Assembly (NCBI GenBank): GCA_937891465.1
Contig: CALAHF010000042.1
Span: forward strand, 1-54,370
Direction: 5' to 3'
DNA from: an uncultured Verrucomicrobiales bacterium
GTDB lineage: Bacteria; Verrucomicrobiota; Verrucomicrobiia; Verrucomicrobiales; DEV007
DNA length: 54,370 bases
This document shows positions 5,913 through 54,370 of this stretch, piece by piece (the stretch's first letter is position 1; the number at the start of each line of letters is the position of its first letter). The notes below the pieces were generated by a model that saw only the letters and a list, made by a program, of their open reading frames with translations, made no database searches and was not told the DNA's origin. Both the position numbers and the translations under genes were made by a program.

Positions 5913-5955
5913 CGATCCAACAGGGTTTAGTTGATAAACGAACCCTGTTGGATCG
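5913..5955. repeat. Palindromic repeat family, copy A (perfect 15-bp arms)
   Basis: The arm cgatccaacagggtt (5913-5927) is followed by a 13-nt loop and its exact reverse complement (5941-5955). It lies between the HIT gene and the sulfatase, 69 bp before the sulfatase ATG. It is one of eleven related elements in the window. Confidence 0.9.
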
Positions 5956-8664: not shown

Positions 8665-8920
8665 TAACCATGGATTGCAGGGAGAACTTGGATAAAAAAT
8701 TTGATTCGGGAGAGTTTTGTTTTTTGGAAAATCGAATGGCCTGATTCACTGTCGGTTTTGGATTTCCATTTGGATCACAGGGATAGGAAGTTGCTCGACC
8801 GATCTACGAAATCCAAAAGGCTATCCACCGAAAATCGTCGCAGCCCATTCCATCTTCCAAGAATCAAACGACTTTCCGAACCAAAGCCAAAATCCAAGTC
8901 CTCCATGAAATCCATGGTTA
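8665..8920. mobile_element. MITE-like foldback element with 29-bp terminal inverted repeats
   Basis: Positions 8665-8693 and 8892-8920 are reverse complements of each other with only three mismatches in 29 bp, starting with taaccatggatt at each end. Further inside, imperfect complementarity continues: tttgattc, gaatggcctg/gaatgggctg and ttttggatttc each recur on the opposite strand. The whole 256 bp could therefore form one long interrupted hairpin with its apex near 8767-8807. No coding potential is convincing. The right end stops 4 bp before the stop codon of the DUF368 gene. It could be a non-autonomous transposon or a structured RNA; no transposase is nearby. Confidence 0.65.
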
Positions 8921-9881: not shown

Positions 9882-9926
9882 ACGAAGCAATAGGGTACGT
9901 TCGATGAACTAACCCTGTTGTTTCGT
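9882..9926. repeat. Palindromic repeat family, copy B
   Basis: The arm acgaagcaatagggt (9882-9896) faces aaccctgttgtttcgt (9911-9926). Two positions differ but still allow G-T pairing in RNA. The centre reads gttcgatgaac, itself a small palindrome. It lies between the esterase gene (10843 to 9941) and the DUF368 gene. Confidence 0.85.
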
Positions 9927-15423: not shown

Positions 15424-15467
15424 ACGATCAAACAGAGCGCGTTCGACGAACCAACTCCATTGGATCG
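15424..15467. repeat. Palindromic repeat family, copy C (degenerate)
   Basis: The left arm acgatcaaacagag and right arm ctccattggatcg match the family consensus with several mismatches. The centre gttcgacgaac is well preserved. It lies in the spacer between the LysM gene and the esterase gene. Confidence 0.6.
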
Positions 15468-18868: not shown

Positions 18869-18964
18869 CGAACCAACCCTGTTGCTTCAACGAACGAACC
18901 CTATTTGATCGAAATGACTTTACGAACCAACCCTATCCGTTCATCGAACCAACCCTGTTGGTTC
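18869..18964 (+). repeat. Palindromic repeat family, copy D: four direct half-units spanning a start codon
   Basis: Four half-units of about 20 bp occur in the same orientation: 18869-18888, 18891-18911, 18923-18942 and 18945-18964. Each contains aaccct followed by a gttg- or att-like stretch. Two lie before and two after the chosen ATG at 18914, so the second pair is coding. This is the direct-repeat form of the family rather than the hairpin form. Confidence 0.85.
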
Positions 18965-20422
18965 ATTGTGCTTACAACTCTCACAATTGCATTTTCTGCG
19001 ATCGCGGAAGATCCCAAAGAATCGGACTACTACACGATCACCCACTTCGGCCCACCCGCTGAAGGCGTGACCATCGAATCCGGCGGCATTGTCCAGATGG
19101 GCGATACTGGAAAAATCGCGGTGTGCACGCGTCGTGGGCAAATTTGGACGGCTGAAAATGCGTTTGGCGATCCTGCGAATGTGAAATGGCAAATCTTCGC
19201 GGAATACCTTCACGAGCCGCTCGGTTTGGCTTGGAAAGATGGCTGGCTTTACGCCGTTCAGCGTCCTGAATTGACGCGGATGAAAGATGAAGACGGCGAT
19301 GGCCGTGCCGACATTTTCGAAACGGTTTCAGATATCTGGGGCGTCAGTTCCAACTATCACGAATATGGATTCGGATCGCATTTCGACAAAAATGGCGACA
19401 TCTGGACGGTTCATTGCCTGACGGGTTCGTTCACTTCGAACACGAAATACCGAGGCTGGGTGATCAAAATCAGCGCCGACGGAAAAGCGACTCCGATGGC
19501 TTGTGGCGTTCGTTCTCCGGGTGGAATTGGCTTCAACGCAGCGGGTGATGTTTTCTACACCGACAACCAGGGCGCGTGGAATGGATCGAGTTCGCTCAAG
19601 TGGGTGAAACCAGGATCGTTTCAGGGAAATCCGAATGGCAATGTTTGGTTCGAAATCGCCAACGGAGCGATCGGTGATCCACCCCCGCACCCGAGCTACG
19701 ACGAAGGTCCGGGCCGAGCTGACAAAGCTCGCGAAAAGATTCCAACTTACGTTCCGCCGGCAGTTGTGCTTCCACACGGCAAAGTTGGTAACTCGCCAAC
19801 GGGCGTCGTCCCTGATTTGAGCGATGGAAAATTTGGACCATTCGCAGGACAAACATTCGTCGGTGAGCAAACGCATTCGAAAGTTCATCGCGTGTTTTTG
19901 GAAAAAGTGAACGGCATGTATCAGGGCGCCATTTTCCCATTTTTGGAAGGCTTTGATTCTGGAAACATCGGAATGCTTCTCGGAAAAGACGGCGTCATGT
20001 TCACTGGCGGATCCAATCGCGGTTGGGGCGCCAAAGGCGGAAAGCCAGCAAGTTTTGAGCGAGTGAACTGGACCGGCGAAGTGCCTTTTGAAATTCACGA
20101 AATGCGCGCGAAGTCAGATGGCTTTGAGCTGACATTTACCAAGCCGATCGATAAAGCCACGGCAATTGATGCGAGCTTTAAAATGGATGCTTACACCTAC
20201 ATTTATCAAAAGGCTTACGGAAGTCCGGAAGTCGATAAATTGAATCCAACGGTCACGGTCACTGGTGTCGCAGACGATGGAAAAAGCATGACGATCAAAG
20301 TCGAGCCAATGACGAAAGGCCACGTTCACGATCTTCATGCCGAGGGATTAAAGTCGAGTGAAGGCATCGGGCTTTTGCACAACGTGGCGTATTACACGTT
20401 GAATGAGATTCCCACGAAGTGA
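18914..20422 (+). CDS. Secreted glucose/sorbosone-dehydrogenase-like beta-propeller; N-terminus built from repeat DNA
   Basis: This 502-aa exported protein resembles the PVC sorbosone-dehydrogenase-like propellers but lacks a haem domain. Recognisable parts are YLHEPLGLAWKDGWLYAVQRPELTRMKD, the acidic DEDGDGRADIFE loop, CGVRSPGGIGFNAAGDVFYTDNQGAW, and a C-terminal beta-sandwich-like segment. ATG 18914 gives a signal peptide with n-region MTLRTNPIRSSNQPC and core WFIVLTTLTIAFSAIA; residues 4-17 are encoded by two palindromic-repeat half-units. A TTG at 18905 or a GTG at 18968 are alternatives, but the GTG would leave no basic n-region. It lies 52 bp after the cupredoxin gene, a likely redox partner. 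Confidence 0.87.
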   Translation: MTLRTNPIRSSNQPCWFIVLTTLTIAFSAIAEDPKESDYYTITHFGPPAEGVTIESGGIVQMGDTGKIAVCTRRGQIWTAENAFGDPANVKWQIFAEYLHEPLGLAWKDGWLYAVQRPELTRMKDEDGDGRADIFETVSDIWGVSSNYHEYGFGSHFDKNGDIWTVHCLTGSFTSNTKYRGWVIKISADGKATPMACGVRSPGGIGFNAAGDVFYTDNQGAWNGSSSLKWVKPGSFQGNPNGNVWFEIANGAIGDPPPHPSYDEGPGRADKAREKIPTYVPPAVVLPHGKVGNSPTGVVPDLSDGKFGPFAGQTFVGEQTHSKVHRVFLEKVNGMYQGAIFPFLEGFDSGNIGMLLGKDGVMFTGGSNRGWGAKGGKPASFERVNWTGEVPFEIHEMRAKSDGFELTFTKPIDKATAIDASFKMDAYTYIYQKAYGSPEVDKLNPTVTVTGVADDGKSMTIKVEPMTKGHVHDLHAEGLKSSEGIGLLHNVAYYTLNEIPTK

Positions 20423-27356: not shown

Positions 27357-27399
27357 CGATCCAATAGGTTACGTTCGTTGAACCAACCCTATTGGATCG
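27357..27399. repeat. Palindromic repeat family, copy E
   Basis: The arm cgatccaatagg (27357-27368) pairs exactly with cctattggatcg (27388-27399). The centre contains gttcgttgaac. It lies between the FKBP isomerase and the YpsA-type gene, both on the plus strand. Confidence 0.9.
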
Positions 27400-31110: not shown

Positions 31111-32313
31111 TCAGCCTTCATCAACGGTTTCATCACGCTGATAAATCGGCAACTGGCGATAAGGAACCGTGAACGACAAAATCATCATTGCTGTTCCGTA
31201 AGTCCCGCCGTTGCGCCCGTTTGACCACGACCCATTCGCATTCTGTTTACCCAGGTATTCGTTGTACATCCAGTCCGCATACTGCTCCCAGTATTTTCCA
31301 CCCAGCTGAAACATCCCCTGCGAATTGTAGTAATTCGCATAATACTCATGGGCGTTGTTAACCACCTTCTGACGATTCTGAAGGATGAAATCGCCAGATT
31401 TAAAAGTCGAAGGCGTGCCGTGATATCCGCAAAGCTCAAGGCACAAAAGACCACATCCAGTCAACGTTTCCGAATGGCCCCACGGATCGGTATATCCAAA
31501 TCGACCCGATTCTTTATCGTGATTTTTGAGCACGTATTCGACTGCTTTTTTAATCGCTTCATCAGGAACTGGAGCGCCGTTCAACTTTGCAGAACGCAGC
31601 GCCATCAGGGCCCAACCGCTGCACGACAAATCTGAATCTCTGGAATCCGGCTTGTAGCGCCAACCGCCTTTGTGGCCGTCATTTTTCGGAACGGACTGTG
31701 CCGAAAGCAAAAGCTTCGTTGCCTTGCCCAAAATCTTATCGAGCTCTTTTTGCTTCTTCTCGCCGACCATCCCGGATACTTCTGAAAGAAAGAGTGTCGC
31801 AATGTTATGTGCGTACATTAGTCCATGGCCCGAATCTCCATTATCGATCAAGCCGTTCGATTTTTGGTGAGCCAATGTGTAATCGATGCAGCGATCCAGG
31901 TTTTCGGAAAACTCGCCGTATCCAGGAGTGTATCCGGCCGAGAGATAAGCCATTCCCACCAGCGCGACAACGCCGGTTGAGCGACCGTATGAATCGTTAA
32001 ACGTGCCGTCTTGCTGCTGATTATCGGCCAAGTATCGCAAAGCCTTTTCGACCGCTTTTTCAGCAGGTTCGCGATGTTTTTGGAAAACAGCATTTGAAAG
32101 CGACTGCGCATTTGCATTCGCCCCAAAGACTAACGCAACCATAAAAAATGAGAGAAACGATCGAACAGAAGAAATAGATCGGCATACGCCTGTCTGAACC
32201 CCACCAATTCGCGGCGACGTTTTTTGCTCAGATTCAACGGTTGAACCCAGACGCGATTTGGTAGGGCACGTTCGATGAACCAACCCTGTTGCTTCGAAAA
32301 AGTGATGTTTCAT
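31111..32313 (-). CDS. Secreted prenyltransferase/squalene-oxidase-repeat (terpene-cyclase fold) protein; repeat-derived N-terminus
   Basis: This 400-aa protein is the last gene of the MoxR operon. The mature part (from about residue 70) is an alpha/alpha barrel with cyclase-type QW-like repeats: RYLADNQQQDGTFND, GGWRYKPDSRDSDLSCSGWALMAL, GRFGYTDPWGHSETLTGCGLLCL, KQNANGSWSNGRNGGTYGTAMMIL. The signal-peptide core is SFLSFFMVALVFGANANAQ at about 52-70, preceded by a 50-residue extension whose first 20 residues (FEATGLVHRTCPTKSR) are encoded by palindromic repeat copy F. No better in-frame ATG precedes the hydrophobic core. Such proteins are common in PVC genomes; cyclase activity outside the cytosol is unlikely, and a binding or scaffold role is more plausible. 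Confidence 0.85.
   Translation of the reverse strand: MKHHFFEATGLVHRTCPTKSRLGSTVESEQKTSPRIGGVQTGVCRSISSVRSFLSFFMVALVFGANANAQSLSNAVFQKHREPAEKAVEKALRYLADNQQQDGTFNDSYGRSTGVVALVGMAYLSAGYTPGYGEFSENLDRCIDYTLAHQKSNGLIDNGDSGHGLMYAHNIATLFLSEVSGMVGEKKQKELDKILGKATKLLLSAQSVPKNDGHKGGWRYKPDSRDSDLSCSGWALMALRSAKLNGAPVPDEAIKKAVEYVLKNHDKESGRFGYTDPWGHSETLTGCGLLCLELCGYHGTPSTFKSGDFILQNRQKVVNNAHEYYANYYNSQGMFQLGGKYWEQYADWMYNEYLGKQNANGSWSNGRNGGTYGTAMMILSFTVPYRQLPIYQRDETVDEG
32253..32296. repeat. Palindromic repeat family, copy F (one arm degenerate, coding)
   Basis: The right arm caaccctgttgcttcg and centre gttcgatgaac match the family well, while the left arm (cgcgatttggtaggg) has decayed. The copy lies inside the first 21 codons of the squalene-cyclase-fold gene on the minus strand. 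Confidence 0.75.
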
Positions 32314-36418: not shown

Positions 36419-36463
36419 ACGATCCAATAGGGTTGGTTCATTGAACCTTCCCTGTTGGTTCGT
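36419..36463. repeat. Palindromic repeat family, copy G (in an operon spacer)
   Basis: The arm acgatccaatagggt faces ccctgttggttcgt with the centre gttcattgaac. It lies in the 100-bp gap between the VWA-like gene ending at 36490 and the coiled-coil gene starting at 36389, so it is inside the MoxR operon transcript if the operon is continuous. Confidence 0.85.
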
Positions 36464-36489: not shown

Positions 36490-39400
36490 CTATGCCAATC
36501 CGCTCTTCCGACGCAAGATCCACTCTGTGGTGAGGAATCCCAAAAACAAAACTAACAGCGGCCACTTGTCCCAGAGGGTCACGTTCTCGCGTTCAGTCAG
36601 GGTTTCTTTCGGCGACCCGAATCGAGTCACGAGCGATTGTAAATTTGAGATCTCAGCAACATGCCCGCCGGTCATTTGTGCTGCACGATTTAAAAAATCA
36701 CGGTTGGCTGTCAATTCAGCCAATTCGATTGGATTGCGAGTCGTCACGACAAGGAGCTCCGTTTCGAGTTTCTCCTCACCCTCCGCCAGGCTGCTATCGA
36801 CAGCCTCGCCTTCGATTCGGACGGTATATTCTCCCGCCTCCGGCAGCCCTGCAACCGTGGTCTCGTATATTCCTGATGAGTCGGTTCGGTAACTCAGTTT
36901 TTGGCGCAACAGTCGTTTTTCTCCATCGTAAATCGAGGCATACACTTCGGCTTCTGTAATCGGTTTGCGATCTGCATCGAGCACTTTTGACGTGATATTA
37001 ATTTCGTCATTTGGAGTGTAGCTCAGCCGATCGGTTCCGAGACGCACGCGCTCATTTCCGCTTCGCAAATTCGCGCCCGCTCCCCAACGAGTCAACTGCC
37101 CCCAAAATCGGTGATGATAAGTATCGCCCACTCCGTATCGGAAACGCCACGTCTGATCAAAGTTCATCATCGCGACTTTTCCTAAACCAGACCGCTGAAT
37201 TGTGATCAACGCGTGCTCTTTTTCATACGTCTTCTGATTCGCGAGTTGTTGGATTGCAGCCTCAACCGAATCAGGCGAACCATTCACATCAATGTCGCCA
37301 ACTCCCGTATCACCGATTGGACGCGCGTAGGCCAGGACTTCCGCCCCGTCTTTCACTCCGGTTGTCACCGGTGAACGCCAGCGCAACGTCGGAAACTGCC
37401 CCCAAATTTCTCCGTTCAACGAACGGCTCGTTGATTGCGCCGTCACTGGGTGCCCCCGGCCAACCGTTGTCAGCTCGATCCGATAGGCTTTTTCCGGTGC
37501 CTCAAATCGCTCAGCATCTGATTGCTCATAAGTGATCGGCAAAAGCCGCTTAAACGTCTCGTTCGAAAATGAATGCGGCATGTGACGCGGACCTGCGACG
37601 CAAACCAACAACGCCCCGCGTTTGGTGACGGATTCCTGAATCGCATCCCACTCCCATGGCTGAAGGGAATTCGCAGGAAGGTCTCCCAGAATGATCACAT
37701 CAAACTGAGCCCATTCGTCGGCATCTTTGGGTAGTTCGGTGGCTTCCGCATCACCGAATTTCCGGCTGGCACTTGCCGGAACACCACTCGATGAATTCAT
37801 CCGGTCAATCGTGTCGGGGTTCAGCAACACATACTGAAGATGAACCGATTTATCACGCCCGTAAAAAAGGTTTCTCAGATAACGAAATTCCCATCGCGGA
37901 AAGTTATCAACCAACAACACATTGGTCCGATCATCCGTCACAGCGACTTTGAAATCCCACGAGTTATTATTCGAAAACAACTCCGACTTACTCGGCTCGA
38001 GCTCGACCTGATAATCGAAAATCCCTTTTTCAGCCGGGAAGTGAACAAATCGCAGCTCGGTCCGAAAATTGATATCCGGCACGTCGATCTCTTGTTCTTC
38101 CACAACTTCACCACCGTATTTCAAAACGGCTCTCACTTTTTTTCCACGCAATCCATCCAGCTTTGCTTCCGCTTTCACCAATATTCGATCACCCAAATAA
38201 ATTGATTCCGGAGCATTCAAACTCAACAGCGAAGCGTCCACTGGCCCCTGATACCCACCGATTGGAACGGCAACGAATGGCGAATTCTGAACTGCCATTT
38301 GCCGCAACGAATCTTCCGGCAATCCCACGGCATTGTGCTGTCCATCCGAAAGCAACAAAACCCCAGCAAGTGATTCCGGTGAGGTGTTTTCTAAAACATG
38401 CTCCAAAGCCCCAGTCAGATCAGTCAATGCGCGTTCCGGCTTTTGTTCAGTTGTGTCAGACACAGCCCCCGCGATCACCGCATCTAAATCGACCAACTCT
38501 TCAGTATCCCTGGCGAAACGATAATACCGAACATTATAATCAGACTTCAATCGATCCAATAGGGTCTGTTCTTCGATCGCACCCTCTTCGCTCGTAAAAC
38601 TGATAGGCGTTTGCAAAGCTGCTCGCGCGATGTCCCGCCGAGTCTTGGCGGCCGCATCCGTTACCGTTTTGCGAGCGCCTTCGCTCATTTTGTCAAACAT
38701 GGTCTGGTCCACCCGTTCAATCGCGAACGGAATTTGCTCCGACACGACACCGATTTCCCGGGCAGCTACTTCGAGTTGCTTTAAAACTTCTTCCCCATTT
38801 CCTTCACCCATCCCGTTTTCGGCAGCCTGAAAAATTCGGCTCAATCCATCGCGCGTTCGGTTTCTGAAATCGGTGATTTTATTTTTCGAATCTCCGCCCA
38901 GAAATTCACTCTGCTGATTCAAAATTTCATCAAACGACGTTACCAAACCAGCTGCTCGTTCAGTTCCTACAGCAAGAAATTCGTTGAGGCCTTCGGCACG
39001 GGATTCAATCCCTGAATTGGGATCAGGCGAGGTTTTGATAGCCGTAATCTCATCCTGAATATCGGAAGCCAACGCATCGACCTTCGTTCGAATAGCATTC
39101 AATGGCGGACGAAATTTAACGGCATCGACTTTGAATAAATCCGCTCGATCCATCATCTCGGAAACCGAAAGTCGCTGGTCAGAAAGGTTCATCGACTCCG
39201 ATTCATCCACTAAAATTACAACCTCACGATTGATCTCTCGATTTTTCAAAAAGGAGTGAACCGGCTGGAGGAGAATCGCGATCAACGTCGTCAACGCCAG
39301 CACTCGCAAAGCGAGTAACCAGCGTCCGCGTACCGGCGAAACGATCGTACGTTCAAATCGATACAGCCAAACAATGATCTCGGCCGCAACAGCTCCCATA

Positions 39401-39657
39401 ATCGCCAACGGCCAAAGGCTCCACGAGGTCGAGAGCGAAATGAATTTTCCAAGAAATTGGAACAAACTCCAAAAGCCAACCGCCAGCGCAAATGCACCAA
39501 CGATGGCGATAAAAACATTGGTCGAAAGCCGCGTAAAACGATTGCGAACACGGAGCGAACCGATCCAGATAAAAAACAGCGCGAGAACACCGATCCCAAG
39601 CATTACGGGGCCAAGGGAAGTGGCGAGGTCGGTGCGGTTGTAATCTTCGGGATTCAA
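36490..39657 (-). CDS. VWA-like/glutamine-amidotransferase-like membrane protein of the MoxR operon
   Basis: This 1055-aa protein begins with four membrane spans (about 16-32, 47-68, 83-98, 115-131), then a VWA-type strand VVILVDESESM with Asp151 and Ser153/155 in MIDAS-like positions. After a helical stretch comes LAGVLLLSDGQHNAVGLPEDSL, then a region like class I glutamine amidotransferases (VLLVDNFPRWEFRYLRNLF, WAQFDVIILGDLPANSL), a beta-sandwich (YTPNDEINITSKVLD) and one C-terminal span (WPLLVLFLGFLTTEWILRRKSG). The start is TTG at 39657; ATG 39603 is an alternative keeping the first span. It follows the BatA-like gene by 32 bp. It contains repeat copy H around codon 356-370. Confidence 0.85.
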   Translation of the reverse strand: MNPEDYNRTDLATSLGPVMLGIGVLALFFIWIGSLRVRNRFTRLSTNVFIAIVGAFALAVGFWSLFQFLGKFISLSTSWSLWPLAIMGAVAAEIIVWLYRFERTIVSPVRGRWLLALRVLALTTLIAILLQPVHSFLKNREINREVVILVDESESMNLSDQRLSVSEMMDRADLFKVDAVKFRPPLNAIRTKVDALASDIQDEITAIKTSPDPNSGIESRAEGLNEFLAVGTERAAGLVTSFDEILNQQSEFLGGDSKNKITDFRNRTRDGLSRIFQAAENGMGEGNGEEVLKQLEVAAREIGVVSEQIPFAIERVDQTMFDKMSEGARKTVTDAAAKTRRDIARAALQTPISFTSEEGAIEEQTLLDRLKSDYNVRYYRFARDTEELVDLDAVIAGAVSDTTEQKPERALTDLTGALEHVLENTSPESLAGVLLLSDGQHNAVGLPEDSLRQMAVQNSPFVAVPIGGYQGPVDASLLSLNAPESIYLGDRILVKAEAKLDGLRGKKVRAVLKYGGEVVEEQEIDVPDINFRTELRFVHFPAEKGIFDYQVELEPSKSELFSNNNSWDFKVAVTDDRTNVLLVDNFPRWEFRYLRNLFYGRDKSVHLQYVLLNPDTIDRMNSSSGVPASASRKFGDAEATELPKDADEWAQFDVIILGDLPANSLQPWEWDAIQESVTKRGALLVCVAGPRHMPHSFSNETFKRLLPITYEQSDAERFEAPEKAYRIELTTVGRGHPVTAQSTSRSLNGEIWGQFPTLRWRSPVTTGVKDGAEVLAYARPIGDTGVGDIDVNGSPDSVEAAIQQLANQKTYEKEHALITIQRSGLGKVAMMNFDQTWRFRYGVGDTYHHRFWGQLTRWGAGANLRSGNERVRLGTDRLSYTPNDEINITSKVLDADRKPITEAEVYASIYDGEKRLLRQKLSYRTDSSGIYETTVAGLPEAGEYTVRIEGEAVDSSLAEGEEKLETELLVVTTRNPIELAELTANRDFLNRAAQMTGGHVAEISNLQSLVTRFGSPKETLTERENVTLWDKWPLLVLFLGFLTTEWILRRKSGLA
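38551..38595. repeat. Palindromic repeat family, copy H (coding, half conserved)
   Basis: tcgatccaatagggtctgtt matches the family strongly on one arm; the other arm (accctcttcgctcg) is decayed. On the minus strand it encodes AIEEQTLLDR within the VWA-like protein. The same TLLDR peptide arises from copy J in nagA. Confidence 0.6.
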
Positions 39658-43688: not shown

Positions 43689-43733
43689 ACGATCCAACCC
43701 TATTGGTTCATCGAACAGACCCTATTGAATCAA
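43689..43733 (-). repeat. Palindromic repeat family, copy I (direct half-units)
   Basis: Two half-units run in the same orientation, gatccaaccctattggttc and gaacagaccctattgaatc, so this copy cannot form the usual hairpin. It lies between moxR and the DUF58 gene. Confidence 0.85.
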
Positions 43734-43742
43734 ATAAGCAGA

Positions 43743-44786
43743 TTAAACATCCAGGTCAGCACTTGGCTTGAACTCATCGACAAGCATCGTCACGATGTCA
43801 TCACTGGTCACGCCTGCCGCTTCAGCATTGAAGGTCGTCAAAACACGGTGGCGTAAAACCGGGTGAGCCACTTCGCGAACGTCTTCAGTTGTCGCGTGGT
43901 AGCGACCTTTCAGAATCGCGCGTGCTTTCGCGGCAAGGATCAAATAAATTCCAGCCCTCGGACCGGCGCCCCAGGCAACCATTTCTTTTACGAAAGCGGG
44001 AGATGTTTCCTCCTTCGGACGAGATGCACGAGCAATTTGGGCAGCGTATGCAACCACGTGATCTGCTACAGGCACACGGCGCACGACCTCCTGCAAACGG
44101 ATCACGGCATTGCCATCGAGCTGTTTCTCAATCTTCGCTTTGTAGGTTCCAGCGACACGCTTGATAATTTGTTGCTCCTCAGCCTCGGATGGGTAATCCA
44201 CCCGAATGTTGAACATGAAACGGTCCAACTGCGCTTCAGGGAGCGGATAGGTTCCCTCTTGCTCGATCGGGTTTTGCGTCGCCAATACAAAGAACGGCTC
44301 AGGCAACGGGTAGGTCTCATCACCGATTGTGACGTGATGTTCCTGCATTGCCTCAAGCAAAGCCGCCTGGGTTTTCGGCGGTGTCCGGTTGATCTCATCT
44401 GCCAAAATCATGTTGGCGAAAACCGGTCCTTTCACGAATTTGAAAATCCGCTTTCCGGTCGTCATATCTTCCTCCAAAACCTCGGTTCCGGTAATGTCAG
44501 CCGGCATCAAATCAGGAGTGAATTGAACGCGTTTGAAACTAAGGTCGAGCACTTCCGAGACCGTGGAAACAAGCAACGTTTTCGCCAAACCGGGGACACC
44601 CACCAACAATGCGTGGGAGCGACAGAAAATCGCAATGAGAAGCTGCTCAATGACATCCTCCTGACCAACGATGACCCGCTCCAACTGCGTGCACATGTTG
44701 GCGTAGGCCGTTTTCAATTCTTCGATGGTTTCCTTATCGGAACCCGAAAGTTCCGCGTTTTCAGTTTCAGGAGCAGCTGTGGACAT
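43743..44786 (-). CDS. moxR: MoxR-family AAA+ ATPase
   Basis: This 347-aa cytosolic AAA+ ATPase has Walker A at 63-70 (GVPGLAKT), Walker B at 127-131 (ILADE), sensor-type residues in [26 protein letters not shown], and the MoxR-typical C-terminal lid ([28 protein letters not shown]). MoxR ATPases act as chaperones or assembly factors for VWA proteins and their metal-bound complexes. It is the first gene of the six-gene operon. I chose ATG 44786 since residues upstream in the frame are not conserved in the family. The 237-bp divergent spacer to the PQQ gene holds the promoter, which I cannot place confidently. Confidence 0.96.
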
Positions 44787-48931: not shown

Positions 48932-50083
48932 ATGCAGCGCCGATTCATCACCAATGTCCAACTCGCCACGCCGAATCAGCCCGTTCGGCCAGTTTCGATT
49001 GAACTCAGCGACGACGGAAAAATTGATTCGATCCACGAGTCTGTCGATTCAATTCCGAGCGGCTCGATGATCGAGCTCGACGGAGCCAACGAGCTGACTG
49101 CGTTTGCTGGTTTTATCGACATTCATACCCACGGCGCCATGGGCTGCGATCTCACGCACGGAACCGAAGAGGCGGTCCGAACGATCGCTGAAGCGAAATT
49201 AAAAGAAGGCGTCACCACATTTCTTCCAACGACATGGACAGAGACCGTTGAATGTAAAAAGGAAATGGCGGCGGCCGCGGCAGCCTATCGTGCACGCGAA
49301 GATTTTGCGCGGGCGCCTTTCATGCACATCGAAGGACCATACTTGAATCCTTCACAAGCCGGCGCTCAGGATCCAAAAAAAATGCGCGATACTGATATCG
49401 AAGAAATTCGTGAGTTAGCGAAAATCTGCCCGATCGGCATCGTTTCGCTTGCCGTGGAATTGCCCGGTGCGCTTGATTTCATCCGCGCGATGAAAGCTGA
49501 CGGAATTCGTACTTCCGTTGCCCACAGCGCTGCCACTCATGCCGAATTTCTTGCCGCTCGGGAAGCAGGGTTGAATCACATGACCCATTTTTGCAATCAA
49601 ATGTCTGGCCTTCACCATCGGGAAATCGGCCTGGTCGGTTCCGGCTTCAAAGATGATTCGGTGATGATCGAACTGATCTGTGATGAAGTTCATCTCGCCC
49701 CGGAAATGATTGCCCTCGTTTTCGAAAAAAAATCCACCGACCAACTCATGCTCATCACCGATTCGATCGCAGCCTCCCATCTCGGCGACGGCGAATATCC
49801 CATTGGCGACACCGTAATTATCGTGAAAAACGGTCAGGCTCGTATTCCTGCAGGGAATCTCGCCGGTTCGATTTTGGAATACAATGTTGGTGTGAAAAAT
49901 GTCGCAAAAATCACCGGATTAAGTCTCGATGAACTTTCCAAAACGACAGGGGCGAATCAGGCACGAAGCCTTGGGTTGAACGACCGCGGCACGATCGAAC
50001 AGGGTCTGTTCGCCGATCTAACCCTATTGGATCGTGAATTTGCCGTTCAGGCCGTCTTCCTTGGCGGCAAGCGCAAGGTTTAG
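48932..50083 (+). CDS. nagA: N-acetylglucosamine-6-phosphate deacetylase
   Basis: This 383-aa amidohydrolase removes the acetyl group from GlcNAc-6-phosphate in amino-sugar catabolism. Metal and active-site residues are visible: His65 and His67 (FIDIHTHGAMGCD), Glu134 (HIEGPYLNP), His198 (VAHSAATHAEF), His219 (MTHFCNQM) and catalytic Asp277 (LITDSIAAS). The family's C-terminus (NDRGTIEQGLFADLTLLDREF) is intact, but its DNA at 49990-50036 is a copy of the palindromic repeat family. The stop overlaps the stop of a convergent small gene by 3 bp. No nagB is present in the window. Confidence 0.96.
   Translation: MQRRFITNVQLATPNQPVRPVSIELSDDGKIDSIHESVDSIPSGSMIELDGANELTAFAGFIDIHTHGAMGCDLTHGTEEAVRTIAEAKLKEGVTTFLPTTWTETVECKKEMAAAAAAYRAREDFARAPFMHIEGPYLNPSQAGAQDPKKMRDTDIEEIRELAKICPIGIVSLAVELPGALDFIRAMKADGIRTSVAHSAATHAEFLAAREAGLNHMTHFCNQMSGLHHREIGLVGSGFKDDSVMIELICDEVHLAPEMIALVFEKKSTDQLMLITDSIAASHLGDGEYPIGDTVIIVKNGQARIPAGNLAGSILEYNVGVKNVAKITGLSLDELSKTTGANQARSLGLNDRGTIEQGLFADLTLLDREFAVQAVFLGGKRKV
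49990..50036. repeat. Palindromic repeat family, copy J (inside nagA coding sequence)
   Basis: The arm cacgatcgaacagggt (49990-50005) faces accctattggatcgtg (50021-50036), with two mismatches between the arms. It codes for TIEQGLFADLTLLDR, which is at a conserved place in the NagA family, so the element and the protein sequence coincide without disrupting the frame. Confidence 0.8.
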
Positions 50084-51884: not shown

Positions 51885-51929
51885 ACGACTAAACAGGGTT
51901 GTTTCGATGACTCAACCCTGTTTAGTCGT
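51885..51929. repeat. Palindromic repeat family, copy K (perfect 17-bp arms)
   Basis: acgactaaacagggttg (51885-51901) and caaccctgtttagtcgt (51913-51929) are perfect reverse complements around an 11-nt loop. This is the best hairpin of the family. It lies between the divergent GHL10 and methyltransferase starts, ending 15 bp before the methyltransferase ATG. Confidence 0.92.
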
Positions 51930-54269: not shown

Positions 54270-54370
54270 CTAGTCTTTCTTTTCTTCGGCAGGAGCTTCT
54301 TCAGTTGCAGGAGCCTCTTCAGTTGCAGGAGCCTCTTCAGTTGCAGGAGCCTCTTCAGTTGCAGGAGCCT
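54270..54370 (-). CDS. 3' end of an EAPATE-repeat protein, truncated by the window edge
   Basis: On the minus strand the stop TAG is at 54270-54272 and the C-terminus reads EAPATEEAPAEEKKD. Going into the window edge the frame repeats A-P-A-T-E-E every six residues, four times. This is a low-complexity acidic tail of the kind found on secreted or DNA/RNA-binding proteins; the functional domain lies outside the window. The convergent terminator stem separates it from the sigma gene. Confidence 0.7.
   Translation of the reverse strand, partial: APATEEAPATEEAPATEEAPATEEAPAEEKKD
54296..54367. repeat. 18-bp tandem repeat encoding an EAPATE-type hexapeptide
   Basis: Four nearly identical 18-bp units (54296-54313, 54314-54331, 54332-54349, 54350-54367) differ only at the first unit's start (cttc versus cctc). 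The array continues beyond the window. Identity at the DNA level suggests recent expansion by slippage. Confidence 0.92.

Follow-up and report, generated by a model that had tools for sequence, protein, structure and literature searches.

A doubled palindromic repeat within and around nagA in an uncultured Verrucomicrobiales bacterium, a candidate genome-wide protein-recognition site

Several described systems of repeated DNA come close to the element considered here, a 43-nt doubled palindrome found in a 54,370-nt stretch from an uncultured Verrucomicrobiales bacterium (GenBank assembly GCA_937891465.1, contig CALAHF010000042.1, positions 1 to 54,370; hereafter the window) and read within nagA, the gene for N-acetylglucosamine-6-phosphate deacetylase. 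Repetitive extragenic palindromic (REP) sequences are reported mainly downstream of coding regions (extract of PMC3733652), and REP doublets forming hairpins (REPINs) are described as inverted doublets that are spaced randomly above 200 bp (extract of PMC3116915). The DNA uptake sequences (DUS) of Neisseriaceae have genus dialects (extract of PMC3630211), and the uptake sequences of H. influenzae are evenly spaced according to a claim by Karlin et al., as cited second-hand in an extract of PMC1939737. Palindromic elements read in frame within genes are described from Rickettsia (extract of PMC3733652). Literature searches returned no description of the present repeat family, which is no proof of absence. 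On balance, we lean towards reading the repeat as a double-stranded, genome-wide protein-recognition site, and thus as a candidate of that kind rather than an inserted or mobile palindrome.

Anatomy of the element and absence of base-pair covariation

The element consists of two 21-bp units, CGAWCNAAC-AGG-GTTNGWTCG, whose centres lie 22 bp apart, each unit being near-palindromic except for its central AGG/CCT. A repeat search found 12 copies in the window, and a position matrix recovered the same 12, with nothing else above 13 bits. The copies, together with the two genes that contain copies J and H, are listed below.

5913..5955, no strand: element copy, intergenic
9883..9925, no strand: element copy, outside genes according to the gene caller used
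15425..15467, no strand: element copy, intergenic
18869..18911, no strand: element copy, opening a pair with a distance of exactly 54 bp, units direct
18923..18965, no strand: element copy, second of the 54-bp pair
27357..27399, no strand: element copy, intergenic, strongest family match in the window
32254..32296, no strand: element copy, outside genes according to the gene caller used, although the longest open reading frame would overlap it
36420..36462, no strand: element copy, intergenic, with a copy at the same place in the related genome G001
36490..39657, minus strand: 1055-aa gene containing copy H, with MG2-like and YtkA-like matches below the curated cut-off
38552..38594, minus strand: element copy H, inside the 1055-aa gene, in the same frame as copy J, TSEEGAIEEQTLLDRL
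43690..43732, no strand: element copy, intergenic, at the same place in G001, where the left unit is flipped
48932..50083, plus strand: nagA, N-acetylglucosamine-6-phosphate deacetylase, 383 aa (TIGR00221, 249.6 bits, cut-off 225.65; Amidohydro_1)
49992..50034, plus strand: element copy J, in nagA, ATC GAA CAG GGT CTG TTC GCC GAT CTA ACC CTA TTG GAT CGT
51886..51928, no strand: element copy, lying 19 nt away from a gene start that is doubtful, matched in position by a copy in G001

To describe the family, we scanned 1.254 Mb, or 21%, of the assembly (G000; 229 contigs, 95.6% complete), with a first sample of 454 kb. The scan yielded 225 elements, which corresponds to about 1,070 per genome; six that scored 25 bits or less were left out of later counts, leaving 219. 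In the 454 kb, units of at least 11 bits form 52 two-unit clusters (51 with a centre distance of 22 bp and one with 32), six three-unit clusters, ten four-unit clusters (all spaced 22, 32, 22) and 14 singles, whereas one shuffle gave 12 units at 10 bits and 7 at 12 bits. Elements are also doubled at a larger scale: of 207 distances between neighbours, 32 equal 54 bp exactly, and the range between 55 and 1,202 bp is empty. A neighbour distance of 32 bp was seen in the first sample and is absent from the distances counted above 25 bits. In the 54-bp pairs, the 11-bp spacer starts A-rich in 22 of 32 cases and ends T-rich in 27. Among the 219 copies, units face inward in 140, run in the same direction in 75 and face outward in 4; runs of T precede the element in 99, and runs of A follow it in 90. 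No two of these copies are identical, the closest pairs being alike at 41 of 43 positions. In stretches of a further genome, G012, four 22-bp neighbour distances occur between element matches, and runs of units at the 22-bp step are longer than in G000.

A palindrome of this sort could act as an RNA hairpin at gene ends, as a terminator or a stabiliser of mRNA, and fold in the nagA mRNA by chance. Strong folds are predicted for four of the five stretches that were folded (z −2.8, −4.2, −5.6 and −6.8), one of them a 54-bp pair with direct units in which pairing runs across two elements, and intergenic copies lie near gene 3' ends (median distance 26 nt in the 454 kb). However, Watson-Crick pairing between the arms of the 219 copies is 0.667, as compared to 0.681 expected from independent columns (z −3.0), pairing at variable positions is 0.416 versus an expected 0.447, and the mini-hairpins range from z −1.6 to +1.3. 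Because pairing does not exceed chance, the palindrome is a feature of the consensus itself, which is what a site recognised by a symmetric protein would show. Moreover, the direct units of 75 copies break the long hairpin, the predicted fold of copy 43690 is no stronger than those of shuffles (z −0.45), the flanking runs are the opposite of those of an intrinsic terminator, and the window contains no Rfam match at the gathering score. We therefore rejected the RNA reading, which appears very improbable, on the covariation in the larger set, despite an excess of paired changes in a 12-copy alignment.

The copy within nagA

An earlier note on this DNA had described a palindromic repeat with both arms in a conserved part of nagA, and both arms are indeed present at 49992-50034, where copy J encodes TIEQGLFADLTLLDR. 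This copy scores 53.3 bits with a matrix built without copies J and H; the top score in two single-base shuffles of the 454 kb is 7.9 bits (with a matrix that included copy J). None of 20,000 synonymous recodings of the copy J peptide reaches 53.3 bits, the maximum being 51.8. The repeat family and the nagA codons are thus linked at the DNA level, which bears out the note's view that the coincidence is unlikely to be due to chance.

The closest nagA genes among named genomes belong to metagenome-assembled genomes (MAGs) of Verrucomicrobiales/Verrucomicrobiia, at 59-61% identity. A codon-level alignment of 37 rows leaves 35 readable ones, since those of G102 and G209 end before or in the site; they represent 34 genomes, G166 and the named MAG locus L032 being identical over the gene, all with a nagA identity of at least 43%. 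No indel is found at the site in any of the 35 rows, which argues against a mobile palindrome having landed there. More distant NagA proteins show length changes of one or two residues beside the site, none of element length. The motif is present in 26 of the genomes, which belong to three genera labelled g1 (2 genomes), g12 (3) and g2 (21), the last a large genus. Their sites reach 28.1-55.1 bits with the best-fitting genus matrix, as compared to at most 9.0 bits in the other nine rows (eight genomes). Non-carriers have peptides such as ATGYLADVVLLDE at the site, whereas carriers have KQGLLADLTLLTP or EQGLFADLTLLDR; this difference indicates that the DNA cores CAGGGT and ACCCTGTT brought Gln-Gly and Thr-Leu-Leu with them. 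When four non-carrier peptides and the G043 peptide were recoded 5,000 times each, no sequence exceeded 11.5 bits with the g1 matrix.

Synonymous positions were examined twice. The first test was partly circular because the carriers had been picked by eye for the motif, and it was therefore repeated with the 29 readable genomes of g1, g12 and g2, picked regardless of the motif. In these, the codon of Gly358 is GGT in 26 of 29, with 12.4 expected, the highest rank among 229 codons, and that of Thr364 is ACC in 23 of 26. Of 286 windows of 12 codons, the one with the strongest conservation falls on the motif, and the same is true among the 26 carriers. The nucleotide-level comparison that had been proposed thus supports a link beyond the peptide. 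Relatives free of the repeat but sharing the nagA DNA, which would have pointed to chance resemblance, were not encountered: G016, G007 and G029, which have no family match among the matches listed, differ here. The suggestion that the repeat arose in nagA and then spread is not supported, a verdict made without a family tree. Relatives without the motif have different DNA and a different peptide here, and G166, G171 and G013 have family matches and a nagA without the site. In the survey, G104 gave no family match, yet its nagA holds a decayed site (31 bits). Judging from the distribution, the nagA site probably arose in place, by point changes or templated replacement, in an ancestor of the three genera. 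On the evidence of its codons, the nagA copy has since been maintained at the DNA level.

Copy H encodes TLLDR from the same arm, as had been noted, and does so in the same frame as copy J. Its score of 38.3 bits is reached by 1 in 20,000 recodings, and the copy is also found in G001, G012, G033 and, weakly, G039. The linker in which it lies varies widely in length, including in genomes without the motif, and several relatives lack up to 8 of its residues; copy H could involve a small length change. In G036, a g2 genome without family matches, the orthologue of this gene (L186) has EEGEAADPTLLGRL where carriers have the element. This peptide resembles that of the carriers and would represent a decayed or pre-element state.

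A shared frame, roughly xx[EQ]QGxFDExTLLxR, is used by 8 of the 9 copies deep inside genes and by 8 of the 14 located towards gene ends (16 of 23 together), although it is stop-free in only 44% of copies, as compared to 65% and 53% for the other frames. For the deep copies, this preference has P = 2e-4 under stop-free weights. Smaller sets from other genomes place 10 of 13 deep copies in the favoured frame, partly at the same nagA and H sites. The preference agrees with the part of the earlier note that envisaged benign translation as in Rickettsia, where palindromic elements would be inserted in frame into genes. Nine of the 219 copies do lie deep in open genes, eight of them in one frame, and the H linker is shorter in several relatives. 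However, an insertion would lengthen the protein, and nagA shows no indel in any row, so a Rickettsia-type insertion is rejected for copy J. For copy H, linker length varies without the motif as well, and G036, without a family match, has a carrier-like peptide. As an account of the family, in-frame insertion is barely credible.

Distribution, conservation of place and genus variants

Gene and intergenic calls, and the spacing null based on them, rest on a simple home-made gene caller. By these calls, 168 of the 219 copies are intergenic, 28 lie across a gene end, 14 inside a gene near its end and 9 deep inside. Among gaps of at least 43 bp, 33 of 87 convergent, 101 of 376 tandem and 28 of 155 divergent gaps are occupied. 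The median gap between elements is 5.5 kb. For the spacing test, 54-bp pairs were merged and intergenic gaps were chosen at random in 1,000 draws. None of 175 gaps is shorter than 1.2 kb (null mean 17.4, minimum 8), 7 are shorter than 2 kb (null 37.3, minimum 25), and 116 fall between 3 and 8 kb (null 66.7, maximum 87). The coefficient of variation (CV) of the 169 gaps below 15 kb is 0.460, as compared to 0.709 for the null and 0.620 for its lowest draw.

Two further ideas about the distribution found no support. Copies inside genes do not appear to fill over-long gaps, the median neighbour-to-neighbour distance being 9,971 bp for the 9 deep copies and 11,924 bp for 154 others. Element-free stretches do not appear to be foreign islands: the largest (G000:C163:75250-113552; 38.3 kb, GC content 0.540 versus 0.511) holds ordinary metabolic genes, as judged from 10 proteins scanned. 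Viral contigs gave 0 exact matches to one element pattern.

A REP/REPIN-like mobile element, with doublets copied by a REP-associated tyrosine transposase (RAYT) mostly into intergenic DNA and in-gene copies as rare tolerated products, would share much of this pattern. Inverted doublets of about 21 nt, a copy number near 1,000, a mostly intergenic location and a lower occupancy of divergent gaps all fit, as does the prevalence of doublets over singlets (52 two-unit clusters versus 14 singles at background; 140 of 219 inverted). The patchy distribution in the order and the slightly greater likeness of copies than in column shuffles point the same way. However, the spacing is even, whereas REPINs are random above 200 bp, identical copies and hairpin covariation are absent from the 219, and the nagA site has no indel. 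Within 8 bp outside or 4 bp inside the element end, the GTAG and CGTC tags occur at 9 and 17 of 219 copies, as compared to 10 and 31 of 219 random places. The sole match to Y1_Tnp (PF01797) in G000 has an in-frame stop, and its 3.3-kb locus contains no element, although an unseen RAYT gene is possible because the assembly is 95.6% complete. Likewise, no element occurs at the one Y1_Tnp locus looked at in each of G012 (17 matches), G039 (6) and G045 (10), and all 13 genomes checked have Y1_Tnp, whether or not they have the repeat family. We consider a REP/REPIN-like origin distinctly unlikely.

Conservation of place was examined in G001, which is of the same genus as G000 and has 70% DNA identity to it over the longest aligned piece. 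All five copies tested (36420, 38552, 43690, 49992 and 51886) are kept at their places, and flanks outside genes hardly align between the two genomes. Of three pairs not deep in a gene, two are alike at 29 of 43 positions, as compared to 30.1 ± 2.7 for random copies, and the third has a flipped unit. Since copies at the same place are dissimilar, the site persists while its letters turn over. On two G001 contigs, gene matches run into the 54-bp pair 18869/18923, which is suggestive only.

The consensus boxes differ between lineages: GAWC/GTTC in g1, GATC in G012, and GACT/GGTC/GACC in G039, with mixtures near those of G039 in G045 and g2. Scored with the genus matrices, all five nagA copies of g1 and g12 score best with their own, in G001 by a narrow margin (43.2 versus 42.8) and in G012 with 50.6 versus 49.6. 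The 21 nagA copies of g2 score best with the G039/45 matrices (17) or that of g2 (4), which are near-identical to each other; the g2 sets are small, and the g2 matrix was built from 12 sequences only. Under stricter scoring, at least 38 of the 386 genomes in the order have matches to the repeat family, and g1, g2 and g12 account for 34 of these. G289, from another family of the order and far from g1, has strong matches (8.6e-11), perhaps a sign that the system, or DNA with the element in it, was transferred.

These variants also bear on whether the repeat might be a signal like a DNA uptake sequence, which would mark self DNA for an uptake receptor, spread by biased recombination and differ between genera. 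A copy number near 1,000 with lineage dialects, as in Neisseriaceae DUS, is what we observe, and even spacing, as claimed for H. influenzae, and DNA-level pressure on proteins are in keeping with it. The dialects, the copy number and the frame preference of the element all fit such a signal. One coding frame is favoured here, as it is for uptake signal sequences (USS). However, in place of a short non-palindromic core the element has two 21-bp palindromic units at a fixed distance, 43 bp in all and doubled at 22 and 54 bp, and single units are at background. We consider an uptake-type signal an unlikely, though not far-fetched, account.

The window has some other features. An inverted pair of 45 nt (8665-8709 and 8876-8920), unrelated to the element, is 78% complementary and 166 nt apart. 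A stretch of 220 nt at about 44210-44430, in the gene at 43743-44786, has many partial relatives in G001, G012 and G039, consistent with a multi-copy gene family. A tandem 18-nt repeat, GCAGGAGCCTCTTCAGTT, occupies 54289-54360 at the end of the window.

Proposed role and comparison with known systems

These data allow us to outline how a protein-recognition site could account for the family. A sequence-specific protein would bind the doubled unit, and selection would keep the sites, spread evenly along the chromosome and mostly behind genes, in place. In an ancestor of the three genera, nagA codons would have been turned into a recognition site without a change in length, and the C-terminal NagA segment QGLLADLTLL would afterwards have been a compromise between protein and DNA function. 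The task of the putative protein would be genome-wide. Chromosome organisation appears the most likely, because of the even spacing and the relative avoidance of divergent (promoter) gaps, with recognition of self DNA as second choice. We tentatively put forward, as a possibility that goes beyond the site itself, that in one verrucomicrobial lineage a DNA-binding protein organises the chromosome via about 1,000 near-regular double-dimer sites; from genus to genus its specificity would have moved from GAAC to GATC to GACC boxes, with the sites following suit, including that in nagA, where the DNA site would have dictated part of a conserved enzyme.

Several observations weigh against a recognition site and its history as outlined here. 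No binding protein has been identified, and none was sought by function. Single units are near background (14 places versus about 7-12 in one shuffle), which is unusual for a binding motif. The mean best match between copies is 37.3 of 43, as compared to 35.6 with shuffled columns, and the variance of pairwise identity is 13.9 versus 7.7, partly owing to orientation and decay; as copies are more alike than independent columns predict, their common descent is possible. In the 12-copy alignment, changes on both sides number 7 versus 4.5 expected, a value reached by 22 of 500 shuffles, although the larger set disagrees. The spacing null depends on the home-made gene caller, and a length-weighted null applied to the initial 454 kb had given no sign of regular spacing (CV 0.748 versus 0.775); the larger sample and the short-gap counts reverse this early result. 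Conservation of place has exceptions. The G001 copy L162:4195 has as its window counterpart, near 44.81 kb, only a 1.5-bit match, and no G012 copy is found at the places of 36420 and 43690 among the matches listed; such differences imply that sites turn over. By the eight variable box positions alone, the nagA copies of G000 and G206 fit the G012 variant best. For nagA itself, the related genomes in the synonymous-codon test are not independent, inclusion of outgroups (35 rows) lowers the on-motif window to rank 5 of 315 and GGT (27 of 35) to rank 3 of 251, and codons 355, 363, 365 and 366 show no synonymous excess.

If the recognition-site reading is true, the sites make up a spacing system that spans a bacterial genome and for which no protein is known here, and nagA becomes a case, open to testing, in which a DNA signal has reshaped a conserved enzyme through substitution rather than insertion. 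Covariation, spacing, place conservation and dialects would then provide a means to separate mobile palindromes from recognition sites.

Set beside the described systems, the family combines traits of several. From REPINs it differs in having neither the GTAG/CGTC tag, nor an associated RAYT that we could find, nor identical copies or hairpin covariation, and in its even spacing and kept place in a relative; it resembles them in its palindromic units of about 20 nt, arranged in inverted pairs, numbering about 1,000 and mainly intergenic. In contrast to the palindromic elements of Rickettsia and the CGTC REPs, as presented in the extract of PMC3733652, the nagA copy is a replacement without length change and the CGTC tag is absent, whereas a palindromic repeat read in frame within genes is common to all. 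Finally, the element is a rigid 43-bp double palindrome, unlike the DUS and USS of Neisseriaceae and Pasteurellaceae, with which it shares about 1,000 copies, genus dialects and both genic and intergenic locations (PMC3630211, PMC1939737).
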